Source: Chthonomonadaceae bacterium (GTDB lineage: Bacteria > Armatimonadota > Chthonomonadetes > Chthonomonadales > Chthonomonadaceae). Taken from it: a DNA stretch of 41,494 nucleotides. Location: contig JANXSG010000272.1 of assembly GCA_025352825.1 (NCBI GenBank), positions 1 through 41,494 of the forward strand, in the 5' to 3' direction. The position numbers were made by a program, and so were the translations under genes. Below the pieces are notes generated by a model. That model ran no database searches. It had not been told where the DNA came from and saw only the letters and a list, made by a program, of their open reading frames with translations. This document shows, in pieces, positions 2,307 through 16,475 of the stretch. Position 1 is the stretch's first letter; the number at the start of each line of letters is the position of its first letter.

Positions 2307-3320
2307 TCACCTGCGCTTGAGTGCTGCAAACGGGCTGACAATCATCTTTCCGATACGCCATGAATTAGACTGTTGGATTGCTTCGAGATCATGTGTTAAG
2401 CGTTGTTCGGTATTTCTATGATTCTCAAGCTCACGTTGTAGAATTCGAATGCATTCATGTGTCTCCTGAATCTCATATCGCGCAAAAGAAGCCTCCTCAC
2501 GCGCCTTTGCAATTTCGATATCCGTGTTTGACGGAGCAGTAGACAATTCATGATTTACTTCTATAATGCGCTGATGTTCATTTGCCATTTTTTGCTGAGG
2601 TGTTTTGCGGGCAATCACAGTAAAGCGTGGGCCAGACTTCTCCAGTCTATCCGATATCACTTCCACTCTTTCGAAGCCCACATCCTTAAGCAGTTCGAGC
2701 AGTGAATCCCTATAAAGCCAGCGAGCATAGGGTTCCACTCCTGCGCGATTGTCTTGCCACAAGCCTTCCGTAAAGTAGTGTGCCCTGTAGGACTTTCCTC
2801 CGTGAGTGAGGTCGGATCGTTCGAAAGTAGTATCGTCTCGGCAGTAGTGGGTATCAAGAATCAGATCGTCGGTCACGTCGGCGATCTTGGTGAGATGTGC
2901 CACGGGATCTAGCAGATGGTACAGCACGCCCACATGGAACATGATGTCGAATGTGCCAAAGCTGCAGTCGAGATCACGGGCATCCAGCAGCGCGACCTTT
3001 GCGTTGTGCACATCCTGGACGAACAGATTTATCAAAGAACATACCACATTGTGCGGACGGACATCAAAAGCAGTGACATGTCTGCATATACGCGAGAGCT
3101 GAGCTGTGTGATACCCCTCGTTGCAGCCCACTTCCAATACGGTTTTATCCCTAGAATTAAAACGAGATGCGACCGCCAGCACCCGCGCATCACCCTCTCT
3201 GATGATTTTATTGTTGCGATCTGGATCACCAAGAATACGCCCATCGGGCATCTCCGTACCCACTTCCCACTGAATCACTTTCTGAAAATCCTGAAACTGC
3301 TGTTCTGTAAGTGCTATCAT
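2307..3320 (-). CDS. SAM-dependent methyltransferase, CmoB/DUF1698-like, with C-terminal coiled coil
   Basis: 337 aa. Residues about 40-220 form a class I methyltransferase fold. The SAM-binding motif I is VLEVGCNEGYHTAQLS, followed by acidic 'AFDVRP' (motif II) and 'FDIMFHVGVLYHLLDP', which is characteristic of CmoB-like/DUF1698 enzymes. Residues about 260-325 are heptad-like and end in 'NSWRIGKMIVSP'. That tail is commonly seen on methyltransferases and glycosyltransferases of cell-surface polysaccharide loci ('SWRIT..LR'). The tail argues for modification of a surface glycan rather than tRNA, but the substrate cannot be read from the sequence. The start at 3320 has GCGGAAG just upstream. 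Confidence 0.75.
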   Translation of the reverse strand: MIALTEQQFQDFQKVIQWEVGTEMPDGRILGDPDRNNKIIREGDARVLAVASRFNSRDKTVLEVGCNEGYHTAQLSRICRHVTAFDVRPHNVVCSLINLFVQDVHNAKVALLDARDLDCSFGTFDIMFHVGVLYHLLDPVAHLTKIADVTDDLILDTHYCRDDTTFERSDLTHGGKSYRAHYFTEGLWQDNRAGVEPYARWLYRDSLLELLKDVGFERVEVISDRLEKSGPRFTVIARKTPQQKMANEHQRIIEVNHELSTAPSNTDIEIAKAREEASFARYEIQETHECIRILQRELENHRNTEQRLTHDLEAIQQSNSWRIGKMIVSPFAALKRR

Positions 3321-3589
3321 GCTTCCGCCCTATTGAATCTTTGCGATCACATTTCTGACATATTCTGTATTATATCAAGAAAGCGTGTTTGCGTCAAACA
3401 CAATCACATCCACCGGCATATTCTTAACTAATCGGGAAAGTATACGTATCCACTGGATGTGGTTATAGCAGGAACCAGGATAATAAAAGTGAAGTATCTG
3501 CTGATACACCTTAGCATTCATCAAACTTTGTAAAGGCGTGCGTATAGAATCGATAGTACAGAATAAAAACCTAGAAAAGGATAACAAAT

Positions 3590-4609
3590 ATGAAACCAAT
3601 TGTGCTTTCGCTCCTGACAGAAGAACACATTCCAAAAGTATTCCATAAAGAAGTCTGGGAGAAAATCAATGATACGTATACCGTGAAAAGTGCTCTAGAG
3701 GATCAAGAGGCCGAGGCTATTCTTATAGAGTGCAGCGCGGTTTTGACAGGGTGGGGCACGAACTTCGAGTTTACACCCGAAAGATTAAACAACGCAAAAA
3801 ACCTCAAGATTATTGCACACACCGCCGGAACCATCAAAATGTTCTTCCCAAATCCGGAATCCCGCACTGTGCTTCTAAGCAGAGGGATAACTGTATTTGC
3901 TGGTCTGGAGGGCATGGCGAGAAACGTGGCAGAGGCAACCATAGGTTTGTTAATACTTGCGATGCGACGCTGGCCAGAACTTTCGATTGGAAGCCATGCA
4001 ATCCAGAACAACGTACTAGCCAAAGACAGAAGTGTAATTCCGAGAAACGACCAGTTCCTGACTAAAGCGACTGTCGGATTGGTGGGTCTTTCGACAGTCG
4101 CACGCATGACGATTCCACTCTTAAAAGCATTCGACTGTAGGATTCTCGCCTATGATCCCTTTATCAATGCTCAGAAAGCAGGCCTCTTGGGAGTCGAGTT
4201 AGTAGAATTGAATGATCTGTTTCGAATGAGCGACGCCGTCAGCCTGCACGCTCCGGCAGTACCATCTACCAGGCACATGATAGGAACCGAACAGCTAAGC
4301 CTCTTACGCGATGGTGCGACGCTAATCAACACTGCCAGAGGAATGATCATAGATCATTACTCCCTATATGAAAAATGCCGAACCAGCCGAATAAGTGTTG
4401 CCCTGGACGTAACGGATCCCGAACCTCTGCCTTTAGATTCCCCGCTTCTAAGTCTGCCGAACGTCTATATTTTGCCACACATTGCAGGGCTAGGTTATGC
4501 GGGACTTTTTCAGATGGGAGATCAGGCTTTCGACGCAATCAATAGTGCGATGACCGGGGAAAAGGTTTCGGGCGCAATTCCTATTGAACGATGGGATTTC
4601 AACGCTTAG
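3590..4609 (+). CDS. D-isomer-specific 2-hydroxyacid dehydrogenase family protein
   Basis: 339 aa, the usual length for the family. The NAD-binding Rossmann domain lies at about residues 105-295. Its dinucleotide loop reads GLVGLSTVA rather than canonical GxGxxG, a variant seen in one branch of the family. The catalytic set is present in order: Arg in 'NTARGMI', Glu in 'DVTDPEPL' and His in 'LPHIAG'. These enzymes interconvert 2-oxo acids and D-2-hydroxy acids; the substrate is not predictable here. SD AAGGATA lies 7-9 nt before the ATG. It stands alone between oppositely oriented or separately promoted genes. A catabolic (sugar acid) role is possible, as this branch often sits in sugar-utilisation loci, but nothing nearby proves it. 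Confidence 0.8.
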   Translation: MKPIVLSLLTEEHIPKVFHKEVWEKINDTYTVKSALEDQEAEAILIECSAVLTGWGTNFEFTPERLNNAKNLKIIAHTAGTIKMFFPNPESRTVLLSRGITVFAGLEGMARNVAEATIGLLILAMRRWPELSIGSHAIQNNVLAKDRSVIPRNDQFLTKATVGLVGLSTVARMTIPLLKAFDCRILAYDPFINAQKAGLLGVELVELNDLFRMSDAVSLHAPAVPSTRHMIGTEQLSLLRDGATLINTARGMIIDHYSLYEKCRTSRISVALDVTDPEPLPLDSPLLSLPNVYILPHIAGLGYAGLFQMGDQAFDAINSAMTGEKVSGAIPIERWDFNA

Positions 4610-4722
4610 AAAATTTGACTCGAAAATCACTGTTTGAATTGAATGTTGTCGCAACTCCGGCCACCGTTTTCCAGAATCTGGCTGCAAGCGTGAGAACTAA
4701 GTCTGAGCTTAAATAAATACTG

Positions 4723-4751
4723 TTGACATCTGACCAACCACTTGTTACAAT
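4723..4751 (+). promoter_or_regulatory. Sigma-70 promoter of the PEP-CTERM gene
   Basis: TTGACA at 4723-4728, a 17-nt spacer, then TACAAT at 4746-4751. The predicted leader is about 105 nt, ending in a good SD (AGGAGA) before the ATG at 4863. No riboswitch-like fold was recognised in the leader. Confidence 0.6.
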
Positions 4752-4862
4752 GGAGTTAGGATTGATTTCATAATTGTTGGTTTTCAGACATGAAGTGGGA
4801 TTCTTCAAATGTTATTGATGTAAGCACTCAGGCAGTAATTCTCACCAACACAGGAGAAATAG

Positions 4863-5552
4863 ATGAATAAGTTCGTTAAAGTGGGAGCTTTCGCATTCAC
4901 ATTTTCCATTCTTCCGTACACTGCCTTAGCGCAGACCTGGTCAGAAACAGGAGATGCCGGTAACCTGATAAGTTCCTCGCAGAATACCATAGGAACAGGC
5001 TCTTTAACTACCATCAAAGGTTCACTTACTCCTGCTTTTGATTTCGAAGACATTTACTGCATTACTATCACAGATCCTACAATTTTCTCGGCAACTTCCA
5101 GCTCACCCAATACTCCACTATGGCTGTTTGATATTGCTGGGAATGGGGTCACTTCGCAGGAAGGAATCTATCTGAATACTCCGAGTAAAATCACAGGTTC
5201 ATTTGTTTCGAATTCCGGTATATACCACCTTGCGATAAGTGATCACGACATCCTAGCTTACAACTCAGCATCACAAGATATTTGGAATTCAAATCCCAGA
5301 AGTGTAGAAACCCCTCCCAATGGGACGGGCGCACCTGGCCCATTAGCATCATGGTCACCTTTCGGGGCATCACTGGGACTTGGAAACTATACCATTACCT
5401 TAACCGGGGCTTCCTACGGAAACTGTTCTGTTCCTGAACCAAGCAGTTTAGCATTTTTAAGTGGAGTTGGATTGCCTGGAGCAATGATGCTGCTTCACCG
5501 ACGTCGTCGAAAGAAGACTAATTCATCGAGCAAATTTCAAGAAGTATTGTAG
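4863..5552 (+). CDS. PEP-CTERM sorting-domain protein
   Basis: 229 aa. A cleavable signal peptide occupies about residues 1-25 (ending near ALAQTW). The C-terminus has the full tripartite PEP-CTERM signal: the VPEPSS motif, a hydrophobic stretch 'LAFLSGVGLPGAMMLL', and a basic tail HRRRRKK. Such proteins are exported and then processed by an exosortase, typically ending on the cell surface or in extracellular polymer. The tail after the Arg/Lys cluster is longer than usual (about 13 residues). The mature domain, rich in Ser, Thr, Asn and Gly, matches no family I know. No exosortase is encoded in this window. The gene ends 6 bp before the convergent pseudopilin gene. Confidence 0.85.
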   Translation: MNKFVKVGAFAFTFSILPYTALAQTWSETGDAGNLISSSQNTIGTGSLTTIKGSLTPAFDFEDIYCITITDPTIFSATSSSPNTPLWLFDIAGNGVTSQEGIYLNTPSKITGSFVSNSGIYHLAISDHDILAYNSASQDIWNSNPRSVETPPNGTGAPGPLASWSPFGASLGLGNYTITLTGASYGNCSVPEPSSLAFLSGVGLPGAMMLLHRRRRKKTNSSSKFQEVL

Positions 5553-5558
5553 ATGCTG

Positions 5559-6365
5559 CTATTCACAGGGTGGGTTGGTGGTACATGGCTCAGATACATC
5601 ACCGACACATTCAGGATCGGTCACTATCCCAAACATCATATACATAGGCTTTTTCGATGCTATCGAGTCGGGCGGAAGCCGGAAAGGGCCTTTGTCGATA
5701 ATCCATTGATCTACAAATTTTGTCGAGACGGGGTCAAATCCTTCAGGCGAGAGATTTTTCTTGAGCTTGACAGAATGGGTATGTCCATCTGCAAGTACAA
5801 TATTCATGCCACCGCGATGCCTTCCCTGCGCCGGGGTGTCTAGCCATGCGCTCATAAAACCTTCATAAATAGCAGGCTGATTCGCGGGGTACTGAAGATC
5901 AGAATACGCACGTACATCATGCCTTCGCACCAATCGAGATCTGCATCCACAGGTAAAAAGACCAGGGTTTGGGACATAAGATGCAAAATTTACACTTTGT
6001 GGAAGTGGCGTCCCATATAGCCCAACTACTTTAGCATAGTCGAATGCTTCAGGTTCGGTTGGGCACTGTAGTATGCAGCTCTTCGCGATATAAGGGAACA
6101 ACAGATCGTATATTGAAAATATCTGGCGAGCCTGCGAGATGGTGTCGCCAGTCACATACAGTGTGAGTGCATATGTCTCATCATAGTCTTGCAGATACAT
6201 CGTGCTCGCCGATCCTATCTGCTGCATGTTATTTATGCAGACGGTGCTGCGAGCAAACTCTCTGACTTGGGCGAGAACGGGGAATAGCAGGGATGCAAGA
6301 ATAGAAATGATCCCTATGCAAACAAGAAGTTCAATGAGAGTAAATGCACTTCTAGTTCTAGACAT
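5559..6365 (-). CDS. Type II secretion/pilin-like protein with prepilin N-terminal motif and H-X9-DG domain
   Basis: 268 aa. The N-terminus has the prepilin cleavage/methylation motif: a basic leader MSRTRSA, then FTLIELLVCIGIISILASLLF. The mature region contains 'FPVLAQVREFARSTVCINNMQQIG', 'YLQDYDETY' and near the C-terminus 'HRGGMNIVLADGH', the H-X9-DG motif. This architecture is greatly expanded in Planctomycetota and Armatimonadota, and the FPVLAQVRE form points to the latter. The proteins are thought to be processed by a prepilin peptidase and held at the envelope; their exact role is not settled. GGAG lies 6 nt before the ATG. It is convergent with the PEP-CTERM gene. Confidence 0.85.
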   Translation of the reverse strand: MSRTRSAFTLIELLVCIGIISILASLLFPVLAQVREFARSTVCINNMQQIGSASTMYLQDYDETYALTLYVTGDTISQARQIFSIYDLLFPYIAKSCILQCPTEPEAFDYAKVVGLYGTPLPQSVNFASYVPNPGLFTCGCRSRLVRRHDVRAYSDLQYPANQPAIYEGFMSAWLDTPAQGRHRGGMNIVLADGHTHSVKLKKNLSPEGFDPVSTKFVDQWIIDKGPFRLPPDSIASKKPMYMMFGIVTDPECVGDVSEPCTTNPPCE

Positions 6366-6692
6366 GCCACACTCCGATTCCAGGATAACATCACGAAAAC
6401 ACTATCCAATCACATCTTTGTCGGAATCTATAACCCATCTATCGCTGCTTGGCCTGATATCAATTATTGGATGCTTTTCCTTTCGCCTATACCCCTTGTT
6501 CTGAATAAAAAAAAATTCAAATATAAGAAAATGTGTTCTAGTTATGAATTGTGTTTCTTGGTGCCTTTGAGTCTTGGTGGTTCAATAAAATACATATACA
6601 GAACAAAGTGAGTTCAGATTTGTACAGGGTGACGAATTTAACTACCAAGACCCAAAGTAACCAAGTAAATGCGATAAAACACTAGCAGATTA
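6366..6692. other. Intergenic region holding an inverted-repeat element
   Basis: This AT-rich gap lies between the pseudopilin promoter side and the 3' end of the chimeric gene. No gene was seen. It contains the 'cttggtg' inverted-repeat element at 6557-6665, listed separately. Downstream of 6365 (read leftward) there must be a promoter for the pseudopilin gene, but I could not single out convincing boxes. Confidence 0.5.
6557..6665. repeat. Small inverted-repeat (MITE-like) element, 'CTTGGTG' type
   Basis: Two 26-bp arms, 6557-6582 and 6640-6665, are inverted copies with 21 of 26 positions identical by eye; each contains CTTGGT...TTTG.GTCTTGGT. About 57 bp separates them. The outer right end reaches close to the stop codon of the chimeric gene (6693). 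Similar 'CTTGGTG..CTTGGTGGTT' sequences are scattered in many bacterial genomes as non-coding repeats. No target-site duplication was evident. Confidence 0.6.
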
Positions 6693-7100
6693 TCAGGCGT
6701 CAACCCAGGGAGCTGTAATCCATTCATAGCCGCTGCCCTGTTTCTTGATGTGCCCCAGGCCAGGAAATGGAATATGGTTGCCCAGCACCAGGGTACGATC
6801 TGCGGATGCCCTGTCAAATAGCCGTTTGCGCGCCGCGATAGCCTGCTGAGGGTCAGTATCGAAAGCAACTGTCCATTCTGGGTGTGCGAACATCAACACA
6901 TTATGGTGAGTAGCATCCCCAATGCAAAGCAGCTGATCGTTACCGGAGCCAATCAACTCTTCCGGGTTTGTTCCAGCGCCATCGGCAGATCGACCACGCC
7001 AGTCGTAACTGCCTTCGAAAGCACCGCTTCCGAGTTTGATATGTCCCTTACCATGAATAAGGTCACCCTTCCATTCCGCTTCTGCGGTTCTTGTAGGCAT
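6693..7100 (-). pseudogene. Chimeric ORF: OsmC-like N-terminus joined to the C-terminus of an MBL-fold hydrolase
   Basis: 135 aa in one open frame. Residues 1-50 match the start of OsmC/Ohr-type peroxiredoxins ('TAEAEWKGDL..GKGHI', 'DGAGTNPEELIG'). In OsmC the next segment carries the first redox Cys ('AAHAGC'). Here the sequence switches at about residue 51 (near nt 6950) to 'SGNDQLLCIGDATHH' and 'MFAHPEWTVAFDTDP', then 'FPGLGHI', which is the C-terminal part of a metallo-beta-lactamase-fold hydrolase. The fusion lacks both OsmC cysteines and the HxHxDH metal site of the hydrolase, so neither activity is expected. The simplest reading is a deletion joining two neighbouring stress genes in frame. 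SD AAGGAG sits 7 nt before the ATG at 7100, so it may still be translated. Confidence 0.65.
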
Positions 7101-7123
7101 TACAGTTCTCCTTATAATTAATT

Positions 7124-7138
7124 TCACCGATTCGGTGA
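7124..7138. promoter_or_regulatory. 15-bp palindrome upstream of the chimeric OsmC-like gene
   Basis: TCACCGA-T-TCGGTGA is a perfect inverted repeat with 7-bp arms. It lies 24 bp upstream of the ATG at 7100. Its size and place fit an operator for a dimeric regulator such as the MarR/OhrR type that often controls osmC/ohr genes, but no such regulator is encoded here. Confidence 0.4.
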
Positions 7139-7256
7139 TGCAACCCTTGATAGCCCGGTTAAATTACAATATCTTAACGAATATATTGGGTATGTGGGTT
7201 CCATTCTAGATTATGAATGATAGATATTTACTCGAAAAGATTACGTTGAGGACAGT

Positions 7257-8318
7257 CTACCATGCCCTGCCGTACTGTTCTGGGGGTGTAATCTCCTGCC
7301 CAAGCTCTTTTGCGGCACGCCGTGGCCAGTATGGATCGCGCAGCATTTCTCGCGCGAGAAAAATCATGTCCGCCTGCCCCGTACGTATGATATGATCTGC
7401 CTGTGCTGGAGAAGTGATCATTCCGACAGCGCCTGTTAAAATATCAGCATCCGTCCGAATACGTTCTGCGAACATAGTCTGGTACCCCGGGCCGAGTGGA
7501 ATTTTGACCGAAGGTACATTTCCACCAGAAGATGCATCTATCAGATCGACACCGAGAGGCTTTACCAGTTTCGCTAACTCGATGGACTGCTCGATATCCC
7601 AACCACCCGCAGCCCAGTCGGTTGAAGATATTCGCATAAATAGTGGAAGCCGTTCCGGCCAGTTTCGTCGAACCTCTTCAACTACTTCCAGAACCATGCG
7701 GATTCGATTTACAAAACTCCCCCCATACTCGTCTTCTCGTTGATTTGAAAGTGGAGAGAAAAACTCGTGCAGCAGGTATCCATGCGCGGCGTGAATCTCC
7801 ACCACTTGAAAGCCTGCTGCCAGAGATCTCTGCGCGGCGATGCCGAACTTCTTAATAATCTCTTTAATTTCTTGATTTGCTAGTTCATGCGGTGTCTGAT
7901 ATTCTTTATCAAAAGGAACTGCTGAGGGAGCAACTACGGGACTCCAACCCCCGTCCGCTATCCCAACAGATTTGCCTCCCTTCCAAGCCGATGCCATACT
8001 TGCTTTTCTGCCCGCATGCGCTATCTGAATTCCAGCCGCACCACCCTGGTTCAACATAAATCGGTTGATTCGCTGAAGCTTTTCGACATGTTTATCATCA
8101 TAAATACCCAAATCATCCGGACTGATCCTGCCTATTGCTTCAACAGCGGCAGCCTCTGTTATTACTAATCCGGCGCCGCCTACAGCGCGGCTGCCGAGAT
8201 GCACCAGATGCCAGTCATCTGCCATTCCGTCTACACTGGAGTACTGGCACATGGGGGACACCACAATTCTATTTCGAAAAATGACATCACGAATTTTCAA
8301 TGATTCGAACAGATGCAT
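7257..8318 (-). CDS. NADH:flavin oxidoreductase, old yellow enzyme family (YqjM/NamA-like)
   Basis: 353 aa TIM barrel with FMN. The N-terminus 'LFESLKIRDVIFRNRIVVSPMCQYSS' with Cys in 'PMCQYS' is diagnostic of the thermophilic-like YqjM branch of ene-reductases; that Cys tunes the flavin. 'QIAHAGRKAS' provides the substrate-binding His pair region together with 'EIHAAHGYLLHEFFSPLSN'. 'DADILTGAVGMI' and 'FLAREMLRDPYWPRRAA' form the C-terminal flavin phosphate site. These enzymes reduce activated C=C bonds of electrophiles with NADPH, often as oxidative or electrophile stress defence. SD AAGGAA lies 6-7 nt before the ATG. The C-terminal Trp/Arg region (QYGRAW) is the usual short tail. Confidence 0.9.
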   Translation of the reverse strand: MHLFESLKIRDVIFRNRIVVSPMCQYSSVDGMADDWHLVHLGSRAVGGAGLVITEAAAVEAIGRISPDDLGIYDDKHVEKLQRINRFMLNQGGAAGIQIAHAGRKASMASAWKGGKSVGIADGGWSPVVAPSAVPFDKEYQTPHELANQEIKEIIKKFGIAAQRSLAAGFQVVEIHAAHGYLLHEFFSPLSNQREDEYGGSFVNRIRMVLEVVEEVRRNWPERLPLFMRISSTDWAAGGWDIEQSIELAKLVKPLGVDLIDASSGGNVPSVKIPLGPGYQTMFAERIRTDADILTGAVGMITSPAQADHIIRTGQADMIFLAREMLRDPYWPRRAAKELGQEITPPEQYGRAW

Positions 8319-8744
8319 AATTTTTCCTTAACCTATTTTAAAATTTTCCACCAGTGTAACCAGTTCCATCAAATTCAAGCCGCTTCCTTCTGAAATTTGA
8401 TTTTGTATTCCACATTCCCATGAAAAAGATGCCTGTACTCTATACCCACGAAATTATCCCTGCTCAATATTGGTAATTGCACAGTGGGATATACACGACT
8501 ATTACAGCACTCACCCCCTGCCCCCTCTCTCCCAAAAATAGGAGAGGGAGTGACTTTAGCATGGGATTCTCGATTTCCAGTATAGTTTCAAACTGCAACA
8601 AACTATTATCCGTGCAGTGGAAAATTGAAATTCAAATATCTGATGCTCCCTCTCTCCCGAATCTTCGGGAGAGGGGGTTGGGGGGGTTGAGGGCGTGAAC
8701 GAGTTTTTTCAACTACTTGAGACTTTTGCAATTATCTCATTCGG
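8319..8744. other. Intergenic region with a GC-rich inverted-repeat element
   Basis: No gene is supported. The left part (8319-8500) should contain the promoter of the leftward ene-reductase gene. The right part is occupied by a full-length GC-rich MITE-like element (8509-8694), which separates the ene-reductase from the 3' end of the SRPBCC pair. Confidence 0.5.
8509..8694. repeat. GC-rich MITE-like element, full copy 1
   Basis: About 186 bp bounded by inverted arms: CTCACCCCCTGCCCCCTCTC on the left, and on the right its near complement ending GGGGGGGTTGAGGGC. Each arm also folds on itself (CTCTCCC...GGAGAG on the left, CTCTCCC...GGGAGAG on the right). The centre (about 8552-8645) is AT-rich and non-coding; it shares a 'gact...gcat.gg' start with copies 2 and 4. 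This copy is more diverged than the others. Confidence 0.75.
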
Positions 8745-9257
8745 CTATCCCTTCACATTTGGCTTCAGATAGACTTGGCCGCCAGAGAAAATCTTCGAAA
8801 TCTGTTGCACCCGGTAATCGAATATCTCTTGAAGCTGCTTGCGAATCAAGAGACGGTGCAGAAACGCTCCAAATGGCCCGAATGGAAGTCGGTAACGCAC
8901 ACAATCGTTTAGTAAAACTCCACCATTAGCTGACTCGAAAGTGTGCGTGTGGTGCCAGAGAATGTAGGGGCCGTTCAACTGGGTGTCTACGAAACTCTTA
9001 TCGGGAGACCAGTCTGTGATCAGAGTACGCCAGAAATAGGGAATACCGTACCATCGCAGACGATACGCTATGAGGGTGCCTTCTCTGATCTCATTGGGTT
9101 CAACAGTAAGAATTTCAAAACTTAACCAGTCTGGAGTGATACGAGGCAGATTGTTCGGGTCTTCGAAGAAGGGGAAGACCTCCTTCATATCTCTGGGGAC
9201 CCATTGCTGCCTTGTCAGCATGTATTCGGGTGCGCCCCAAGCCAATAACTTATGCAT
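8745..9257 (-). CDS. SRPBCC-fold (START-like) protein
   Basis: 170 aa. The pattern 'RQQWVPRDMKEVFPFFEDPNN' then 'PRITPDWLSFEIL' is the usual start of the polyketide-cyclase-like SRPBCC family, which forms a hydrophobic ligand pocket. 'HTHTFE' and 'YRLPFGPFGAFLHRLLIRKQL' are conserved late motifs; the last predicts the long C-terminal helix. The ligand is unknown. It follows the second SRPBCC gene by 8 nt and ends the leftward gene set. In other bacteria genes of this family often travel with SDR/DUF2867 and photolyase genes, as here. No strong SD was seen, so coupling to the upstream gene is likely. Confidence 0.75.
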   Translation of the reverse strand: MHKLLAWGAPEYMLTRQQWVPRDMKEVFPFFEDPNNLPRITPDWLSFEILTVEPNEIREGTLIAYRLRWYGIPYFWRTLITDWSPDKSFVDTQLNGPYILWHHTHTFESANGGVLLNDCVRYRLPFGPFGAFLHRLLIRKQLQEIFDYRVQQISKIFSGGQVYLKPNVKG

Positions 9258-9265
9258 TTTGAGCG

Positions 9266-9739
9266 CTATCCTGCTGCCAAAATATTCTTATGCAATTTGC
9301 CTAAGAAATGAATGGTCGCAAACTTACGATATAGAAATGTCATTCGTAAACCAAATGGTGTGAAGAGAAGCCTCGTCAGGATGCCTCGCGCTCCTTCGAA
9401 ATGATCGTATTCGATGTGTTCTGAAATGCGAGTGAATCCTATTCTCTCTTCTGAAAACTTGTGCGTGTGTATCCAGCTTTTCATCGGCCCATGTATTTGT
9501 GTATCTGTGAATCCCAAGAGCGGATCTACTGATGAATGTTGCGCTGTCCATCGGATAGGCAGAGGGCCAAACCATAATGTGAATTCGGAGATCGATCCTT
9601 CCGCCATAGGGTCAATCCGATGAAGCTGCACATAGACTGGCGGAGGTGATAGTCTGCGCAAAGCGCGTGTATCCCTGTGGAATTCCGCCACATCTACCAG
9701 CGGCGAGTGGACGATGAAATTAAAGTCGAAGGTCTTCAT
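9266..9739 (-). CDS. SRPBCC-fold (START-like) protein, second copy
   Basis: 157 aa, related in layout to the next gene downstream. 'FIVHSPLVDVAEFHRDTRALRRLSPPP' is the N-terminal strand-helix, 'WIHTHKF' matches the HTHTF motif of the neighbour, and 'RLLFTPFGLRMTFLYRK' forms the final helix. The two proteins are clearly diverged paralogues, not a recent tandem duplication. A small hydrophobic-ligand-binding or cyclase-like role is possible; no catalytic residues are recognisable. The gene lies 31 nt downstream of the CIA30 gene. Confidence 0.7.
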   Translation of the reverse strand: MKTFDFNFIVHSPLVDVAEFHRDTRALRRLSPPPVYVQLHRIDPMAEGSISEFTLWFGPLPIRWTAQHSSVDPLLGFTDTQIHGPMKSWIHTHKFSEERIGFTRISEHIEYDHFEGARGILTRLLFTPFGLRMTFLYRKFATIHFLGKLHKNILAAG

Positions 9740-10665: not shown

Positions 10666-11226
10666 TTAAGTCGCCAGCATCGTTCTGAGCTGTTTTCTGG
10701 CTCGGTGAACTCGAGAACGGATAGTACCCACCGAACAGTCTAGTCTTTGTGCAGCTTCCTCATAAGACAGTTCGTGTACATCTACTAAAAAAATAGTTCT
10801 TCGGAAAGAATCCGATAGTTTCACGAGAGCGCCTTCCAGCTTTTCGTCCATTATTTCCGACATCAAACTTACTGCGGGATCCTGGCGGCTATCCGGCAGC
10901 TCGTCTGCCAGGCTTGCAGATTCTTTTCCTGGCATCGGCGCATCTAATGATACTTGCGGGGCTCTGCTTCTAGCCCGCATACGATCGATAAACAAATTTG
11001 AGATAATGCGAAACACCCATCGGTCAAATGGACGTTTATGATCGTAGTGATCAAAAGATCGATAAGCCCTGTAGAAAGCGTCTTGTGCCAGATCTTCAGC
11101 ATCTTCCCAGTTCCCACTCATTCTTTTAGCGTAGGCTAGGCACTTCTGATGATGAAGCCTGAATAGTTCTTCAAAACGGGGAGATCCGGAATATACTGAT
11201 GATATCTGATTTTGTGTGTTAACCAT
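10666..11226 (-). CDS. ECF-family RNA polymerase sigma factor
   Basis: 186 aa. Region 2 lies at about residues 15-90: 'FEELFRLHHQKCLAYAKRMSGNWEDAEDLAQDAFYRAYRSF' and the core-binding 'DRWVFRIISNLFIDRMR'. Region 4 is at about 125-180: 'LSDSFRRTIFLVDVHELSYEEAA' followed by the helix-turn-helix 'LDCSVGTIRSRVHRARKQLR'. A start at 11226 is chosen because AGGAGG lies 6 nt upstream; a longer frame to 11307 lacks this. No anti-sigma gene is adjacent, so control may be transcriptional, for example by the CarH-type regulator at 15531. In Streptomyces coelicolor a LitR-controlled ECF sigma (LitS) switches on crt and photolyase genes, which this arrangement resembles. Confidence 0.9.
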   Translation of the reverse strand: MVNTQNQISSVYSGSPRFEELFRLHHQKCLAYAKRMSGNWEDAEDLAQDAFYRAYRSFDHYDHKRPFDRWVFRIISNLFIDRMRARSRAPQVSLDAPMPGKESASLADELPDSRQDPAVSLMSEIMDEKLEGALVKLSDSFRRTIFLVDVHELSYEEAAQRLDCSVGTIRSRVHRARKQLRTMLAT

Positions 11227-11359
11227 CGATTCCCTCCTGATCGAGGAATTGGGGTTCCGCTGAATCTCTACCGTCTTGCGGAGCCAAACTCCAAGATGTA
11301 TGTTCAAATCAATTTAGAAAGTACTCACTGTGATGTACTTCAATGCGTATTTCCCCACG

Positions 11360-11396
11360 AAATGCTTCCATTCCGTGATATTAAATGCTTCCATTC
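11360..11396. repeat. 14-bp direct repeat upstream of the sigma gene
   Basis: AAATGCTTCCATTC occurs at 11360-11373 and 11383-11396 (plus strand), 23 bp apart. The second copy includes the last codons and stop of the FAD oxidoreductase gene, the first lies in the spacer before the sigma gene. It may be a local duplication or a two-site binding region for a regulator of the sigma gene. Confidence 0.5.
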
Positions 11397-12385
11397 ATGG
11401 CTTCAATAATGGCTTTGGCTGCAGATATGCCCGAAATAGCTGCCCCTTCTACTCTTGGGGCGCCAAACGCATCCCCTGCAAACACCAGTCCTTGTAATCC
11501 TGAAGCAGTGAGCGCCGGCGCAGGATAACACTGGATAGGTTTGGCATAACGCCACTTGTGAATTTGAAATTCGACAACAGGGAAATTCAGCCACTCCTCC
11601 GCACTTTTCAGGAGTTGTCCGGTAATTTCCGCATCCTCCCCGTTCCAGTTTGCTTTGCTGAACTCAGGCGAGGCGTGTATCGTAATGCATGGCGTTTGAG
11701 ATATCCCTTTTATCTGATTGTCCGATATCCAATTGATATCCTGGGTCGGATTTTGCAGGCCTCCCGGCTGTGGTACCGAAGACGGATTGGCCAGGAGTAC
11801 CATGAGTGCAATGCAGGGTTCATACCGAATTGTTTCGAGCGAATCTCTCTCCATCTTTGCCAGGCACACATCCCCTGTATCTAGTAATGCCAGCGATTGT
11901 GGAACTGGCGGCGTAAGAATAAGAGAGTCCGATCTGTAAATACTTTTGTTCTCAGTCCGAACAATCCAGTTTCCCTGTCTGAAAACGATCGAAACTGCTC
12001 TTTCATTTACTCTCACATCAATGTCATTAGCAAGGTATTTTGGGATAGTGTTCATTCCTTCACAGCCGATATAGCGCGCATGGCCATCTTCGGTAGCAAG
12101 CTCTACTGAGTCTGCAAATCCCCTGCACCATTCTCGTACTATCCCAAGTTCTTCCCACTTGTCCACGATTTCTCTAAACTCAGGTTGGCGAACCGTGAAA
12201 AACTGTGCACCATGATCACAAAGAGCGTAATCTATGTGGCGTGTCGACATCCGCCCTCCTACTCCTCTTCCCTTATCTAGAACTCTTAGACTCAGCCCAT
12301 GGCTCTTCAAAGTGTTGGCGGCCATCAGGCCGGATATTCCCGCTCCTATGATGGTGCATGACGCCGTATTATTTACTTCATTCAT
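11381..12385 (-). CDS. FAD-dependent NAD(P)-binding oxidoreductase (renalase/amine-oxidase-like)
   Basis: 334 aa. The N-terminal dinucleotide fold reads IIGAGISGLMAANTLKSHG, followed by 'VLDKGRGVGGRMSTR' and 'CDHGAQFFTVRQPEF', all typical of the bacterial renalase-like family. The C-terminal FAD motif is 'LVFAGDAFGAPRVEGAAISGISAA'. The physiological substrate is unknown; renalase-type enzymes oxidise dihydropyridine isomers of NAD(P)H, and members of this family recur in light/singlet-oxygen gene clusters. SD GAGGTGG lies 5-6 nt before the ATG. It sits between the SDR and sigma genes in the leftward set. Confidence 0.85.
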   Translation of the reverse strand: MNEVNNTASCTIIGAGISGLMAANTLKSHGLSLRVLDKGRGVGGRMSTRHIDYALCDHGAQFFTVRQPEFREIVDKWEELGIVREWCRGFADSVELATEDGHARYIGCEGMNTIPKYLANDIDVRVNERAVSIVFRQGNWIVRTENKSIYRSDSLILTPPVPQSLALLDTGDVCLAKMERDSLETIRYEPCIALMVLLANPSSVPQPGGLQNPTQDINWISDNQIKGISQTPCITIHASPEFSKANWNGEDAEITGQLLKSAEEWLNFPVVEFQIHKWRYAKPIQCYPAPALTASGLQGLVFAGDAFGAPRVEGAAISGISAAKAIIEAMNGSI

Positions 12386-12435: not shown

Positions 12436-13908
12436 CTATTCAGCATGCTCAGCCCAGTATACAAGCTTATTGGCCATACCCGAAAAGACGAAATAGTGAA
12501 GGGGCAGAAGTGCATACCAATAGATGTATCCCCATATTGAACCTGGAAAATAGTAGGCTGTCTGCACAAGCGTGTTATTTCCTTCACTCTCCTCTCGGAC
12601 ACAAAACTCCAGCCATGCTCTTCCAGGCACCTTCATTTCAGCACGTAGTAAAAGTCTATTGGGCCGACAGTCTTCAACACGCCAGAAGTCGATAGCATCT
12701 CCAATCACAATCTCTTCGGGATGACGCCTGCCTCTCCGTACCCCAACACCGCCTATGAGTTTATCCAGTGCACCTCTAATTTCCCACAACCAGTTACCGT
12801 AGTACCACCCTACTCTTCCGCCAACTCGTGAGATAGCTCGCTGTAGTCGCCCGACAGAAGCTCTGGTTTTCACTTCTTGCACGTCGCGAATCAATCCATG
12901 GCCACCGGCAGGAAGATGCGACGTATCCAGCAATCGTGGAATTTCACCTCGAACTGCCCCCGTCCAATGAGTGGGGATCTGTAGATCGTCTGTCTCTCGA
13001 AGCGCCTGTTCGACTGAAGCGCGAAAGGAGGTCAGAGGAACCGGCAGAAGCCGCTGAGCATCGTCATTCTCACATATAGTTTCTGAACGCAGACCCTCGA
13101 CTAAAGGTGAAGCAATAGACGAAGGAATGGGAGTGACCATGTTAATCCAGTAGGATGAAAGGCGTGGGGTCAGCACCGGTACAGTGAATATGAACCTTTT
13201 CAAGCCACGAATGTCTGCATACACTTGCATCATATCTCTGTACATTAGTATGTCTGGACCGCCAATATCCAGCACATGCCCCTCTGATTTTTGGCTTGCG
13301 ATTGCTGCAATAAGATAACTCAGTACATCTTCGATAAATATTGGCTGTGTTCGGGTTTTGATCCAGCGTGGACAAACCATTATCGGAAGTTTTTCCGTGA
13401 GATGACGCAACATTTCAAACGACGCACTTCCAGCGCCCACGATCATCGCTGCTCGAAATTCAGTAACTGGTACAGTGCCGGCTCGCAAGAGGTCACCAGT
13501 AAGGTGTCGGCTTTCCAGGTGCGCAGAGGTGAGGCCGTCTTTCTTTCCCAACCCGCCTAGATAGATTATATGCTTTACTCCACACTCTTCTGCCGCCTTG
13601 GCGAAGGCAATCGCGCTCTGTTTTTCACGCTCCAAAAATCCCTTTTGCCCGTCTCCCATAGAATGTATGAGATAAAAGGCGGTATCAACATTTGTGAGCG
13701 AGGCCGTTAGGCTGGCAGGCTGCAATACATCCCCATAAATCACTTCCAGCTGTCCCGATCGTTGGACTTCGCCATTCCAGCGGCCCGTGAGCCTGCGTGG
13801 TTCACGAACCATGCAGCGAACGTTGAATCCCTTGTGCAATAGGAGTGGAACTAACCTACCTCCAACGTATCCCGTCGCACCAGTAACTAGTATTTGTCGT
13901 TCATTCAT
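12436..13908 (-). CDS. NAD(P)-binding SDR-like protein with C-terminal DUF2867 domain
   Basis: 490 aa. Residues 1-300 are an atypical extended SDR: VTGATGYVGGRLVPLLL is the glycine-rich NAD(P) loop, 'LEVIYGDVLQPASLTASLTNVDTAFYLIHSMG' follows, then 'KHIIYLGGLGKK'. Residues about 330-490 match DUF2867, with 'VGWYYGNWLWEIRGALDKLIGGVGVRRGRRHPE' and 'PGSIWGYIYWYALLPLHYFVFSGMANKL'. The latter is hydrophobic and may associate with the membrane. This two-domain protein is common beside photolyase genes; its reaction is unknown. The start at 13908 is 1 nt after the stop of the 108-aa gene, so the two are probably translationally coupled. An upstream extension to 13983 would overlap that gene and is rejected. 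Confidence 0.85.
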   Translation of the reverse strand: MNERQILVTGATGYVGGRLVPLLLHKGFNVRCMVREPRRLTGRWNGEVQRSGQLEVIYGDVLQPASLTASLTNVDTAFYLIHSMGDGQKGFLEREKQSAIAFAKAAEECGVKHIIYLGGLGKKDGLTSAHLESRHLTGDLLRAGTVPVTEFRAAMIVGAGSASFEMLRHLTEKLPIMVCPRWIKTRTQPIFIEDVLSYLIAAIASQKSEGHVLDIGGPDILMYRDMMQVYADIRGLKRFIFTVPVLTPRLSSYWINMVTPIPSSIASPLVEGLRSETICENDDAQRLLPVPLTSFRASVEQALRETDDLQIPTHWTGAVRGEIPRLLDTSHLPAGGHGLIRDVQEVKTRASVGRLQRAISRVGGRVGWYYGNWLWEIRGALDKLIGGVGVRRGRRHPEEIVIGDAIDFWRVEDCRPNRLLLRAEMKVPGRAWLEFCVREESEGNNTLVQTAYYFPGSIWGYIYWYALLPLHYFVFSGMANKLVYWAEHAE

Positions 13909-13909
13909 G

Positions 13910-14236
13910 TTATGTTGTGATCCGGCGCAGTAGTCCGGCTCCATGTATTTCCAAATGTGGCACCCCAAGCAGCGAACTAGCAACTCCCGATTTCACTTGG
14001 TGCCCTAAAACCATAATTACCTTATCTCTGCTCAGTACTGTCAGCGTAAGTCCGTTGTTACTTAAATAGTCTGTTGTACTACGCAGGAAATTGAGATTAC
14101 TTTTGTGGAATAGCTTAGAGGCACGCAGAAAGTCTACAGGATTATCCACCTCCAGGCGAATCGATTCTTGCTCTGCCACCAGTTGTGCTTCCGCACCATT
14201 CACTAATATTTTCAACGTCCCGCGTAATGCAATCAT
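13910..14236 (-). CDS. Hypothetical protein, 108 aa
   Basis: I recognise no family. The protein is soluble, with no signal peptide or membrane span. It starts with a strand-rich segment (ALRGTLKILVNGAEAQL) and has a middle 'DNPVDFLRASKLFHKSNLNFLRS'. It ends 'VIMVLGHQVKSGVASSLLGVPHLEIHGAGLLRRIT', whose Gly/Leu pattern looks like a conserved core. Spacing supports it as real: it follows the 68-aa gene by 22 nt and its stop lies 1 nt before the SDR start. A partner role with the 68-aa protein or the SDR/DUF2867 enzyme is an inference from position. Confidence 0.65.
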   Translation of the reverse strand: MIALRGTLKILVNGAEAQLVAEQESIRLEVDNPVDFLRASKLFHKSNLNFLRSTTDYLSNNGLTLTVLSRDKVIMVLGHQVKSGVASSLLGVPHLEIHGAGLLRRITT

Positions 14237-14258: not shown

Positions 14259-14465
14259 CTATGCTTTTGCTTCGTAAGTGCGTACCCGTATGGTGCCATT
14301 TAGCTTCCACAATGCGCTGGGAGCATTTGAACTAGTGTCCCGCGGTACCGATACTTCCATATTGTCGAACTGATATTCTATGGTAGCTCCGTGCCCTGTG
14401 AGAAAGTTGTAGAGTCCTTCCGCCAAATGCGGCCAGGTTGTAATTTCCGATTGTGTATCTGCCAT
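14259..14465 (-). CDS. Small hypothetical protein, 68 aa
   Basis: No family recognised. The chosen start at 14465 has AAGGGG upstream at about 8 nt. The sequence begins MADTQSEITTWPHLAEGLY, continues 'FLTGHGATIEYQFDNMEVSVPR', and ends 'ALWKLNGTIRVRTYEAKA'. It is predicted as one helix followed by beta strands, with no export signal. It lies 22 nt upstream of the 108-aa gene and about 100 nt downstream of the fasciclin gene. The two small genes plausibly form a unit. Confidence 0.65.
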   Translation of the reverse strand: MADTQSEITTWPHLAEGLYNFLTGHGATIEYQFDNMEVSVPRDTSSNAPSALWKLNGTIRVRTYEAKA

Positions 14466-14565
14466 GATGAATCCCCTTCGTGATATGAGAATACAGTAAT
14501 ATATAGTCAAATTTACTGTCAGAATGGCGCCAGTTTCAGGAAGCGTCCGGCGCGGATATTTCCTC

Positions 14566-15084
14566 TTAATGTTTAGGCAGTAAGACGGTGTCTATAACAT
14601 GGATGACCCCATTACTACATTCAATATCTGTCTTGACTACCTTAGCATGGTCGACATGCACTCCATGTTTAGTTTTAATTGTGACAGATTTACCGTTGAC
14701 GGTTTTCACTTTGGTTCCACTTTTAAGTTTGAGCACATCTGCTGCCATTACCTTGCCTGGTACGACGTGGTAGGTGAGGATAGCAGTTAGCTTATCTTTA
14801 TTTTCTGGCTTCAGAAGAGTCTCGATTATTCCCGGTTTTGCCTTTTCCAGCTTTTTAAATGCGGCATCCGTGGGAGCGAATACAGTGAATGGTCCGTCAC
14901 CTTTCAGTGTGTCCACCAATCCGGCAGCTTTCACTGCAGCCACCAGAGTCTTGAATGATCCCGCCGCAACAGCGGTATCGACTATATCTTTAGCCTCTTC
15001 TGCCTTTGCCATTGAGCCGCTCGTTATGACAGCCCCCATCAATCCTAAGAATCCCAGCAGAGCCAATCCTTTTCGAAGTTTCAT
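14566..15084 (-). CDS. Secreted fasciclin-domain protein
   Basis: 172 aa. A signal peptide covers about residues 1-28 ([19 protein letters not shown]..., cleavage near AKAEE). One FAS1 domain fills the rest: '[24 protein letters not shown]', H1 motif '[16 protein letters not shown]', the central '[14 protein letters not shown]' (YH motif), and H2 '[13 protein letters not shown]'. Bacterial FAS1 proteins are periplasmic or surface adhesins of uncertain role. The start at 15084 fits the signal peptide; a longer frame to 15195 only extends into the leader. It is the first gene of the leftward set, behind a strong promoter with ACAA-containing 11-bp repeats, and divergent from carH. Confidence 0.9.
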
Positions 15085-15247: not shown

Positions 15248-15277
15248 ATTATAACCCTCATGATATAGTATTGTCAA
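15248..15277 (-). promoter_or_regulatory. Strong sigma-70 promoter for the leftward (fasciclin) gene set
   Basis: Read on the minus strand: TTGACA at 15277-15272, an 18-nt spacer, TATAAT at 15253-15248. Both boxes match consensus exactly. The leader to the ATG at 15084 is about 160 nt. Operator-like repeats overlap the -35 box (next entry). Confidence 0.7.
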
Positions 15278-15298
15278 GTGTTTGTATAGATATTGTCG
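15266..15298 (-). promoter_or_regulatory. Three contiguous 11-bp direct repeats, candidate CarH operator
   Basis: On the minus strand three abutting 11-mers share ACAA at the same register: CGACAATATCT (15298-15288), ATACAAACACT (15287-15277), TGACAATACTA (15276-15266). They cover the -35 box. As I recall, the Thermus thermophilus CarH operator is likewise built of 11-bp direct repeats with an ACA core around the -35 element, one per DNA-binding domain of the tetramer. This makes the site a good candidate for CarH repression. It is a prediction from spacing and core only. Confidence 0.5.
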
Positions 15299-15483
15299 AA
15301 CAAATTTTTAAAAAAATTAACAAGCCTCATTTGTTGTATCCCGTCAGCAATTTAAGTGCTCACGCGATGTGAAGCGATCTTTAACACGAATTTTATGATC
15401 ATGATTCCGTAAAAGCAGTATTAAATTATTCATTCATAACTGAATCGATTAATGTTATTTTGAAATAATTGTAATAAAATATC

Positions 15484-15512
15484 TTGACATAACTTAGACG
15501 AGAATGTATAAT
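15484..15512 (+). promoter_or_regulatory. Consensus sigma-70 promoter of carH and the crt operon
   Basis: TTGACA at 15484-15489, exactly 17 nt, TATAAT at 15507-15512. Transcription would start near 15519, leaving a leader of only about 11 nt, with GAGG of the SD near its 5' end. Such a perfect promoter implies strong control by a repressor, probably the encoded CarH itself. Confidence 0.75.
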
Positions 15513-15530: not shown

Positions 15531-16475
15531 ATGCACACTATCAAATTCGTCGCTCTATATACAGGACTTTCGCAGCACACAATCCGTGCCTGGGAACGGC
15601 GATATTCAGCGCTTACCCCAGCGCGCACCAACACCAATCGACGCTTGTACACTACTGCAGATCTAGAAAAGTTATCACTTCTTCATCGGGCAGTAAATTC
15701 TGGACACAGCATTGGGCAGATAGCTAGTATGACTGTTAAAGGTTTAACAGATATGCTTTCAATAGTTAGTCCTACAAATGCTGCATACAGTCCTGCCATT
15801 TCAATTTCTCCTACTACGAACAAGCTGATCCCGATGAGCGAACATGCAAAACCTTATCTCGATGAATGCCAGCGGGCAGTCGAACGTCTCGATGTGGAGG
15901 GTTTAGAAGATACACTTTCACGTGGGGCGGCGCTGCTCGGATCGGCAGCCCTAATCGACAGTGTTATGATGCCACTTATGCATCGTATTGGGGAACGTTG
16001 GCGTGAAGGGGAAGCGAGGCTTGCTCATGAGCACATGGCTTCCGCAATAGTTCGTACATTCCTGGGGCGTATGTTGGATTCGTACCAGCCAGCAGCACAC
16101 GCCCCTCGCTTAGTGGTTACCACTCCAGCAGGACAGTTCCATGAGCTTGGGGCTCTTGTTGCAGCAGTGACTGCTGCCTCAGAAGGGTGGAGAATTCTCT
16201 ATCTGGGACCAAATCTGCCCGCAGCAGAGATAGCAGGGGCGGTACATCAATCAGGTGCAAGGGCGCTCGCCCTGAGCATAGTCTACCCACCGGATGATCC
16301 GGGAATGGAAAATGAGATGAGTGAGCTTCGAAAGTATGTAGGTAAAGATTTTCCAATCCTGGCAGGCGGGCGTGCTGTATCATCATATAGTGCCATACTT
16401 CATTCAATTCAAGCCATCCCTATTTCAAATACACAGTCTCTACGCAGCGAGCTCGAAGCGCTGCGTTCCCGTTAG
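15531..16475 (+). CDS. carH: MerR-family, B12-binding photoreceptor regulator (CarH/LitR type)
   Basis: 314 aa, the usual CarH size. Residues 1-70 are a MerR helix-turn-helix ('YTGLSQHTIRAWERRY', 'TNRRLYTTADLEKL'). A linker follows to about 105, then a four-helix B12-capping bundle (105-185) and a Rossmann B12-binding domain (190-310). The CarH signature W-x9-EH is present: Trp157, Glu167, His168, which cover the adenosyl group. The lower cobalt ligand is His204 in 'GQFHELG'. In TtCarH light forms a bis-His state using His132, next to the Trp; the equivalent here is Arg158. In the dark AdoCbl-CarH tetramers repress; light breaks them up. It leads a seven-gene operon with 18 nt to the photolyase gene. 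Confidence 0.9.
   Translation: MHTIKFVALYTGLSQHTIRAWERRYSALTPARTNTNRRLYTTADLEKLSLLHRAVNSGHSIGQIASMTVKGLTDMLSIVSPTNAAYSPAISISPTTNKLIPMSEHAKPYLDECQRAVERLDVEGLEDTLSRGAALLGSAALIDSVMMPLMHRIGERWREGEARLAHEHMASAIVRTFLGRMLDSYQPAAHAPRLVVTTPAGQFHELGALVAAVTAASEGWRILYLGPNLPAAEIAGAVHQSGARALALSIVYPPDDPGMENEMSELRKYVGKDFPILAGGRAVSSYSAILHSIQAIPISNTQSLRSELEALRSR

Follow-up and report, generated by a model that had tools for sequence, protein, structure and literature searches.

The gene for a secreted protein with a single fasciclin (FAS1) domain (172 aa; 14566..15084, minus strand; Pfam PF02469, E 1.7e-38) and the gene for a CarH-type B12 light sensor (carH; 15531..16475, plus strand; 314 aa) are divergently oriented in the 41,494-nucleotide stretch of DNA analysed here (the window). 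The promoter of the former carries three abutting 11-bp direct repeats (15271..15303, minus strand) which, judged from the sequence, almost certainly serve as the binding site for CarH from the neighbouring gene. Known CarH proteins switch carotenoid genes, but the most constant target that we found for CarH in Armatimonadota is the gene for the secreted fasciclin-domain protein. It is highly likely that CarH carrying adenosylcobalamin (AdoCbl) occupies this array and a shorter site at the carH promoter (15480-15501) in the dark, thereby blocking both promoters, and that light releases the protein.

Three 11-bp repeats at the fasciclin promoter

The published CarH direct repeat is nnnnTnnACAn (PMC9304148). 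CarH operators are built from three or four such 11-bp units in tandem, or from fewer units supplemented by pseudo-repeats, and cover the -35 or the -10 of a sigma-70 promoter. In this register, the minus strand reads TTGTTCGACAA (15303-15293), TATCTATACAA (15292-15282), and ACACTTGACAA (15281-15271), and all 12 fixed bases of three such tandem units are matched exactly. The cores of the repeats are TCGACA, TATACA, and TTGACA, each of which is followed by A. The original prediction had described three abutting 11-mers that share ACAA in one register and overlap TTGACA, and had likened them to a CarH operator. These 11-mers are present (cgACAAtatct, atACAAacact, and tgACAAtacta, from 15298 to 15266 on the minus strand), and the overlap of the third with the -35 hexamer (15277-15272) was confirmed. 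The likeness to a CarH operator is borne out by the exact fit to the published repeat, but the predicted register is shifted by 5 bp relative to the published unit; the T located three bases before ACA in the published repeat, which the prediction did not include, is also matched. A weak, possible pseudo-repeat with three of the four core bases (TAAAAA; 15304..15314, minus strand) is found upstream of the array, and comparable 'dr' pseudo-repeats have been described at CarH operators (PMC9304148).

The leftward promoter, TTGACA-18-TATAAT (15248..15277, minus strand), and the rightward carH promoter, TTGACA-17-TATAAT (15484..15512, plus strand), both agree with the sigma-70 consensus at 12/12 positions and are the only perfect promoters in 8.6 kb. 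The third repeat of the array provides the -35 of the leftward promoter. Among the 19 array-bearing fasciclin genes identified (window included; see below), an array repeat serves as the -35 of a promoter with at least 9/12 consensus bases in 12, against the 3.5 expected after shuffling of the downstream bases. The -35 coincides with repeat 3 in five of these genes (one being that of the window), with repeat 2 in another five, and with repeat 1 in the remaining two, and this shifting suits a repressor that needs only to cover the promoter.

Classical MerR-type activators act on a dyad inside an over-long spacer of 19-20 bp, and CarH, which carries a MerR-type HTH, might likewise remodel a long-spacer promoter. 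The spacers observed here, however, are of ordinary length (18 and 17 bp) and are flanked by 12/12 hexamers, so that these promoters should need no activator help. In addition, the sites are direct repeats with no palindrome in the spacer, and the species-dependent use of repeat 1, 2, or 3 as the -35 agrees with blocking, not with an activator that requires a fixed geometry. With their spacers and repeat structure, the two sites fall outside the class of classical MerR activator sites, and we consider activation of this kind to be very unlikely.

The -35 consensus TTGACA is itself a match to TnnACA. One of the three repeats is therefore almost to be expected, and the surprise rests on the remaining two. 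If AT-rich spacers had supplied these as well, the array would be a product of chance. Against this, the exact three-repeat pattern has two matches in the whole 4.87-Mb genome and the reversed control pattern has none, and the period-specific conservation described below already contradicts a chance origin, to which we give practically no credence. By a weight matrix trained on the relatives, with the window left out, 15303-15271 scores 30.0 bits, compared with at most 13.1 bits in 30 shuffles and at most 7.4 bits anywhere else in the window beyond the fasciclin-carH gap. When one mismatch was allowed, the genome-wide pattern search yielded 26 sites versus 16 in the control, and further targets are thus indistinguishable from noise at this level. 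In the genome-wide search for more targets, L058 and L052 scored 14-16 bits. An Rfam search of the window gave no family matches.

The CarH protein of the window contains a MerR HTH, a B12-binding_2 helix bundle, and a B12-binding Rossmann domain, all scoring over the Pfam cut-off, and its best PDB matches are the Thermus CarH structures 3whp and 5c8d. Motif alignment identified a Wx9EH motif (W157...E167-H168) and an axial-type histidine (His204). In Thermus CarH, W131, E141, H142, and H177 are the key residues for AdoCbl (PMC11796333). Two positions ahead of the axial His, the window CarH has Q where Thermus CarH has E, a difference that counts against the proposed switch. A cobalamin adenosyltransferase is also encoded in the genome. 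In three CarH relatives (L074, L075, and L076 in genomes G022, G026, and G023, respectively), ER replaces EH in the Wx9EH motif, and neither a fasciclin gene nor an array adjoins their genes; these are perhaps B12-independent descendants.

Distribution of the array and a second site at carH

CarH relatives were collected from the phylum and from named genomes, and the 400 bp upstream of carH were searched in 29 relatives on the strand reading away from carH. At period 11, at least 11 of the 12 fixed bases were present in 17 of the 29 (12/12 in 7), whereas the control periods of 7-10 and 12-17 gave such an array in 0-1 of the 29. The array-bearing relatives include Methylococcales, in which CarH is ~40% identical. 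Two CarH relatives from Methylobacter (L028 and L030) lack the Trp of Wx9EH (KHRKSGELRPVHEH) and keep two exact upstream repeats.

A search for the window fasciclin protein covered 291 genomes, and carH was searched in the same sample. An array with at least 10/12 fixed bases was found upstream of 19 of 20 fasciclin genes in carH-positive genomes versus 0 of 47 in carH-negative genomes (Fisher 8e-16), the genes compared being not independent, with several sharing a genus, and most of the 47 being more distant and possibly paralogues. At the 11/12 threshold, the numbers are 18 and 0, respectively. Both groups span many genera, g31 and g43 contribute to both, and several fasciclins from carH-less genomes that are 64-69% identical to that of the window, as are some array-bearing ones, are still without an array. 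For this comparison, L101 was counted as carH-positive on the basis of a partial carH at the end of a contig, and L090, an array-bearing locus in a 64%-complete genome in which no carH was detected, was left out. The array thus co-occurs with CarH across species. Conservation in related genomes had been named as a check of the original prediction, and this was strongly passed on both the carH side and the fasciclin side; together with the exact fit to the published repeat, it supports the reading of the array as a candidate CarH operator.

In the window and in many relatives, carH and the fasciclin gene share an intergenic region, and the array might accordingly serve the autoregulation of carH alone, with the fasciclin gene as a bystander. 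Several observations argue against this. The array overlaps the fasciclin promoter, and carH has a conserved two-repeat site of its own. Furthermore, the fasciclin gene lies on a different contig from carH in two genomes (G013, L096 and G005, L109), and the array is kept in both, which separates it from mere closeness to carH. The operator goes with the fasciclin gene even where carH is elsewhere, and a bystander role for the fasciclin gene appears extremely unlikely. Some observations speak against the reading as a CarH operator. In one genome (G119), the fasciclin-carH pair (L108/L077) is without the array despite a recognisable HTH and Wx9EH, and no strong divergent-strand array was found at five carH genes without an adjoining fasciclin gene (those of G022, G023, and G026, and both copies in G034).

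The commonest unit in the relatives is AATnTnGACAA, in which ACA is preceded by G and followed by A. The window repeats differ from it at some less constrained positions, a further point against the CarH reading; this refined unit can be used to find CarH targets. The base before ACA also bears on whether the array is a PHO box or another response-regulator site with an 11-bp period. PhoB/PhoP half sites recur every 11 bp, and the PHO box is composed of TTAACA-like half sites. Several exact matches located away from carH and fasciclin genes, in the same genome and in relatives, are indeed threefold TTAACA and PHO-box-like, so that the bare nnnnTnnACAn pattern alone is not specific. One of these is the other exact match in this genome (G000:C195:2079-2106, L035), which we take to be PHO-box-like and have set aside. 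In contrast, the base preceding ACA is G rather than A in 83% of the fasciclin-array units, and the arrays follow carH presence and are located at both of the divergent carH promoters. As the cores in the window (TCGACA, TATACA, and TTGACA) are not TTAACA-like, the array was not classed as a PHO box, and the chance that it is a response-regulator site of this kind is very slight. Threefold TTAACA at 11-bp spacing, again PHO-box-like, was also observed in L079-L081 (G022, G023, and G026).

A second candidate CarH operator, consisting of two 11-bp repeats on the plus strand (15480..15501), is located at the carH promoter. It reads TTGACA-taact-TAGACG, matches the two-repeat core at 7/8 positions, and lies 47 bp upstream of the carH start codon. 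This site was absent from the original prediction; with 17.5 bits, it is the best site outside the main operator in a two-unit scan. In the 90 bp preceding carH, the two-repeat core with period 11 matches at 7/8 or better in 26 of 43 relatives and at 8/8 in 18, and its distance upstream of carH in the relatives is 34-62 bp. With any other period, none of the 43 relatives reaches 8/8 and at most 8 reach 7/8. The conservation of this sequence element suggests that carH is probably self-regulated via the shorter site, together with the downstream photolyase and carotenoid-type genes. In another genome, a full three-repeat array (G169:C44:25212-25239, L121) is present on the carH promoter, in addition to the fasciclin-facing one.

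Proposed switch and its reach

The AdoCbl dependence, the oligomer, the dark repression, and the release by light are proposed by analogy with known CarH proteins. In the dark, AdoCbl-loaded CarH would form a DNA-binding oligomer, with each 11-bp repeat taking one CarH DNA-binding domain. This oligomer would cover the -35 of the very strong leftward promoter, and the fasciclin gene and any co-transcribed genes would stay off. Light would split the Co-C bond of AdoCbl, upon which the oligomer would fall apart and RNA polymerase could use the leftward promoter; light probably switches the fasciclin gene on. Through the two-repeat operator at 15480-15501, carH and the photolyase and carotenoid-type genes would come under the same CarH switch. 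The model makes a strong prediction, namely that these bacteria, for which there is almost no genetics, produce a secreted protein under the control of light.

Behind the fasciclin gene, the minus strand encodes small proteins of 71 aa (14259..14474) and 108 aa (13910..14236), which, from their ORFs and spacing, may be the second and third genes of a leftward unit. Further possible members, annotated by Pfam, are the genes for an NmrA-like/DUF2867 protein (12436..13911), an FAD-dependent amine oxidoreductase (11381..12385), and an ECF-type sigma factor (10666..11307), the last being linked to the array by position. The gaps from the fasciclin gene to the ECF sigma gene are about 90 bp or less, and 272 bp then precede the CIA30 and SRPBCC genes. 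According to the original prediction, CarH would control all genes from the fasciclin gene to the two SRPBCC-type genes (8745..9739, minus strand). The present data support this claim for the fasciclin gene; the SRPBCC-type genes, which lie beyond the 272-bp gap in the window, may or may not be included. In relatives, an SRPBCC gene immediately follows either the fasciclin gene (L062) or the array itself (L060), and an NmrA-like homologue is found near the fasciclin gene or carH (L061 and L071); these genes therefore belong at least to the same neighbourhood. If the ECF-type sigma factor gene is co-transcribed with the fasciclin gene, light would feed a sigma cascade.

Comparison with known systems and the fasciclin protein

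The Thermus thermophilus CarH operator consists of three tandem 11-bp direct repeats, one of which holds the -35 (PMC9304148, PMC8156234). The system described here shares with it the three abutting nnnnTnnACAn repeats, one of them being the -35, and a CarH with Wx9EH and the axial His. It differs from that of T. thermophilus in its target, a secreted fasciclin gene, in the second, two-repeat candidate operator on carH's own promoter, and in the units of the relatives, which have a G directly preceding ACA and an A following it. In Bacillus megaterium, the CarH operators contain four repeats and lie over the -35 or the -10, and the myxobacterial Pcrt operators are DR/dr mixtures (PMC9304148). 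Repeats accompanied by possible pseudo-repeats, and a site-to-promoter position that varies by species, are common to these systems and the present one. The known targets in B. megaterium and myxobacteria are carotenoid operons, whereas here the -35 moves among repeats 1, 2, and 3 at one homologous gene, providing a natural series in which the operator is displaced along the promoter in 11-bp steps.

A literature search, with most subscription journals outside its scope, found no report joining CarH or LitR with a fasciclin protein. As an operator, the array belongs to an established type, that of CarH, and, within this limited journal coverage, the fasciclin target and the phylum Armatimonadota appear to be new, though not proven so. 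In Armatimonadota, the FAS1 protein could be a core output of CarH that is induced by light, made with the photolyase and carotenoid gene products and photoprotective, perhaps as a carotenoid carrier resembling the algal AstaP or as a light-triggered surface adhesin; we regard this role as speculative and rather unlikely. Among solved structures, the FAS1 protein 1w7d is the closest relative of the window fasciclin, with AstaP entries matching much more weakly. Since this is so and a cyanobacterial AstaP homologue does not bind carotenoids, a carotenoid-binding fasciclin stays a conjecture.

In one relative, an exact three-repeat array (G005:C131:81121-81148; L085 1501-1528) is located directly upstream of a gene for a putatively secreted protein of 211 aa. 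This gene, which is remote from carH and fasciclin genes, is a possible further CarH target.

The class II LitR of Pseudomonas controls light-inducible clusters with genes for photolyase, FAD oxidoreductase, and fatty-acid modifying enzymes (PMC9758184). Class II LitR is an effector of a LOV protein and binds T(G/A)TACA-type sites, whereas the window protein has the B12 light-sensing motif and is accompanied by 11-bp repeats. A likeness to the Pseudomonas light-inducible LitR clusters was seen in the fasciclin operon of one relative (L072), in which an FAD amine oxidase gene, two genes of the cyclopropane-synthase (CMAS) type, and a DUF1295 gene follow the fasciclin gene (3161-9543).
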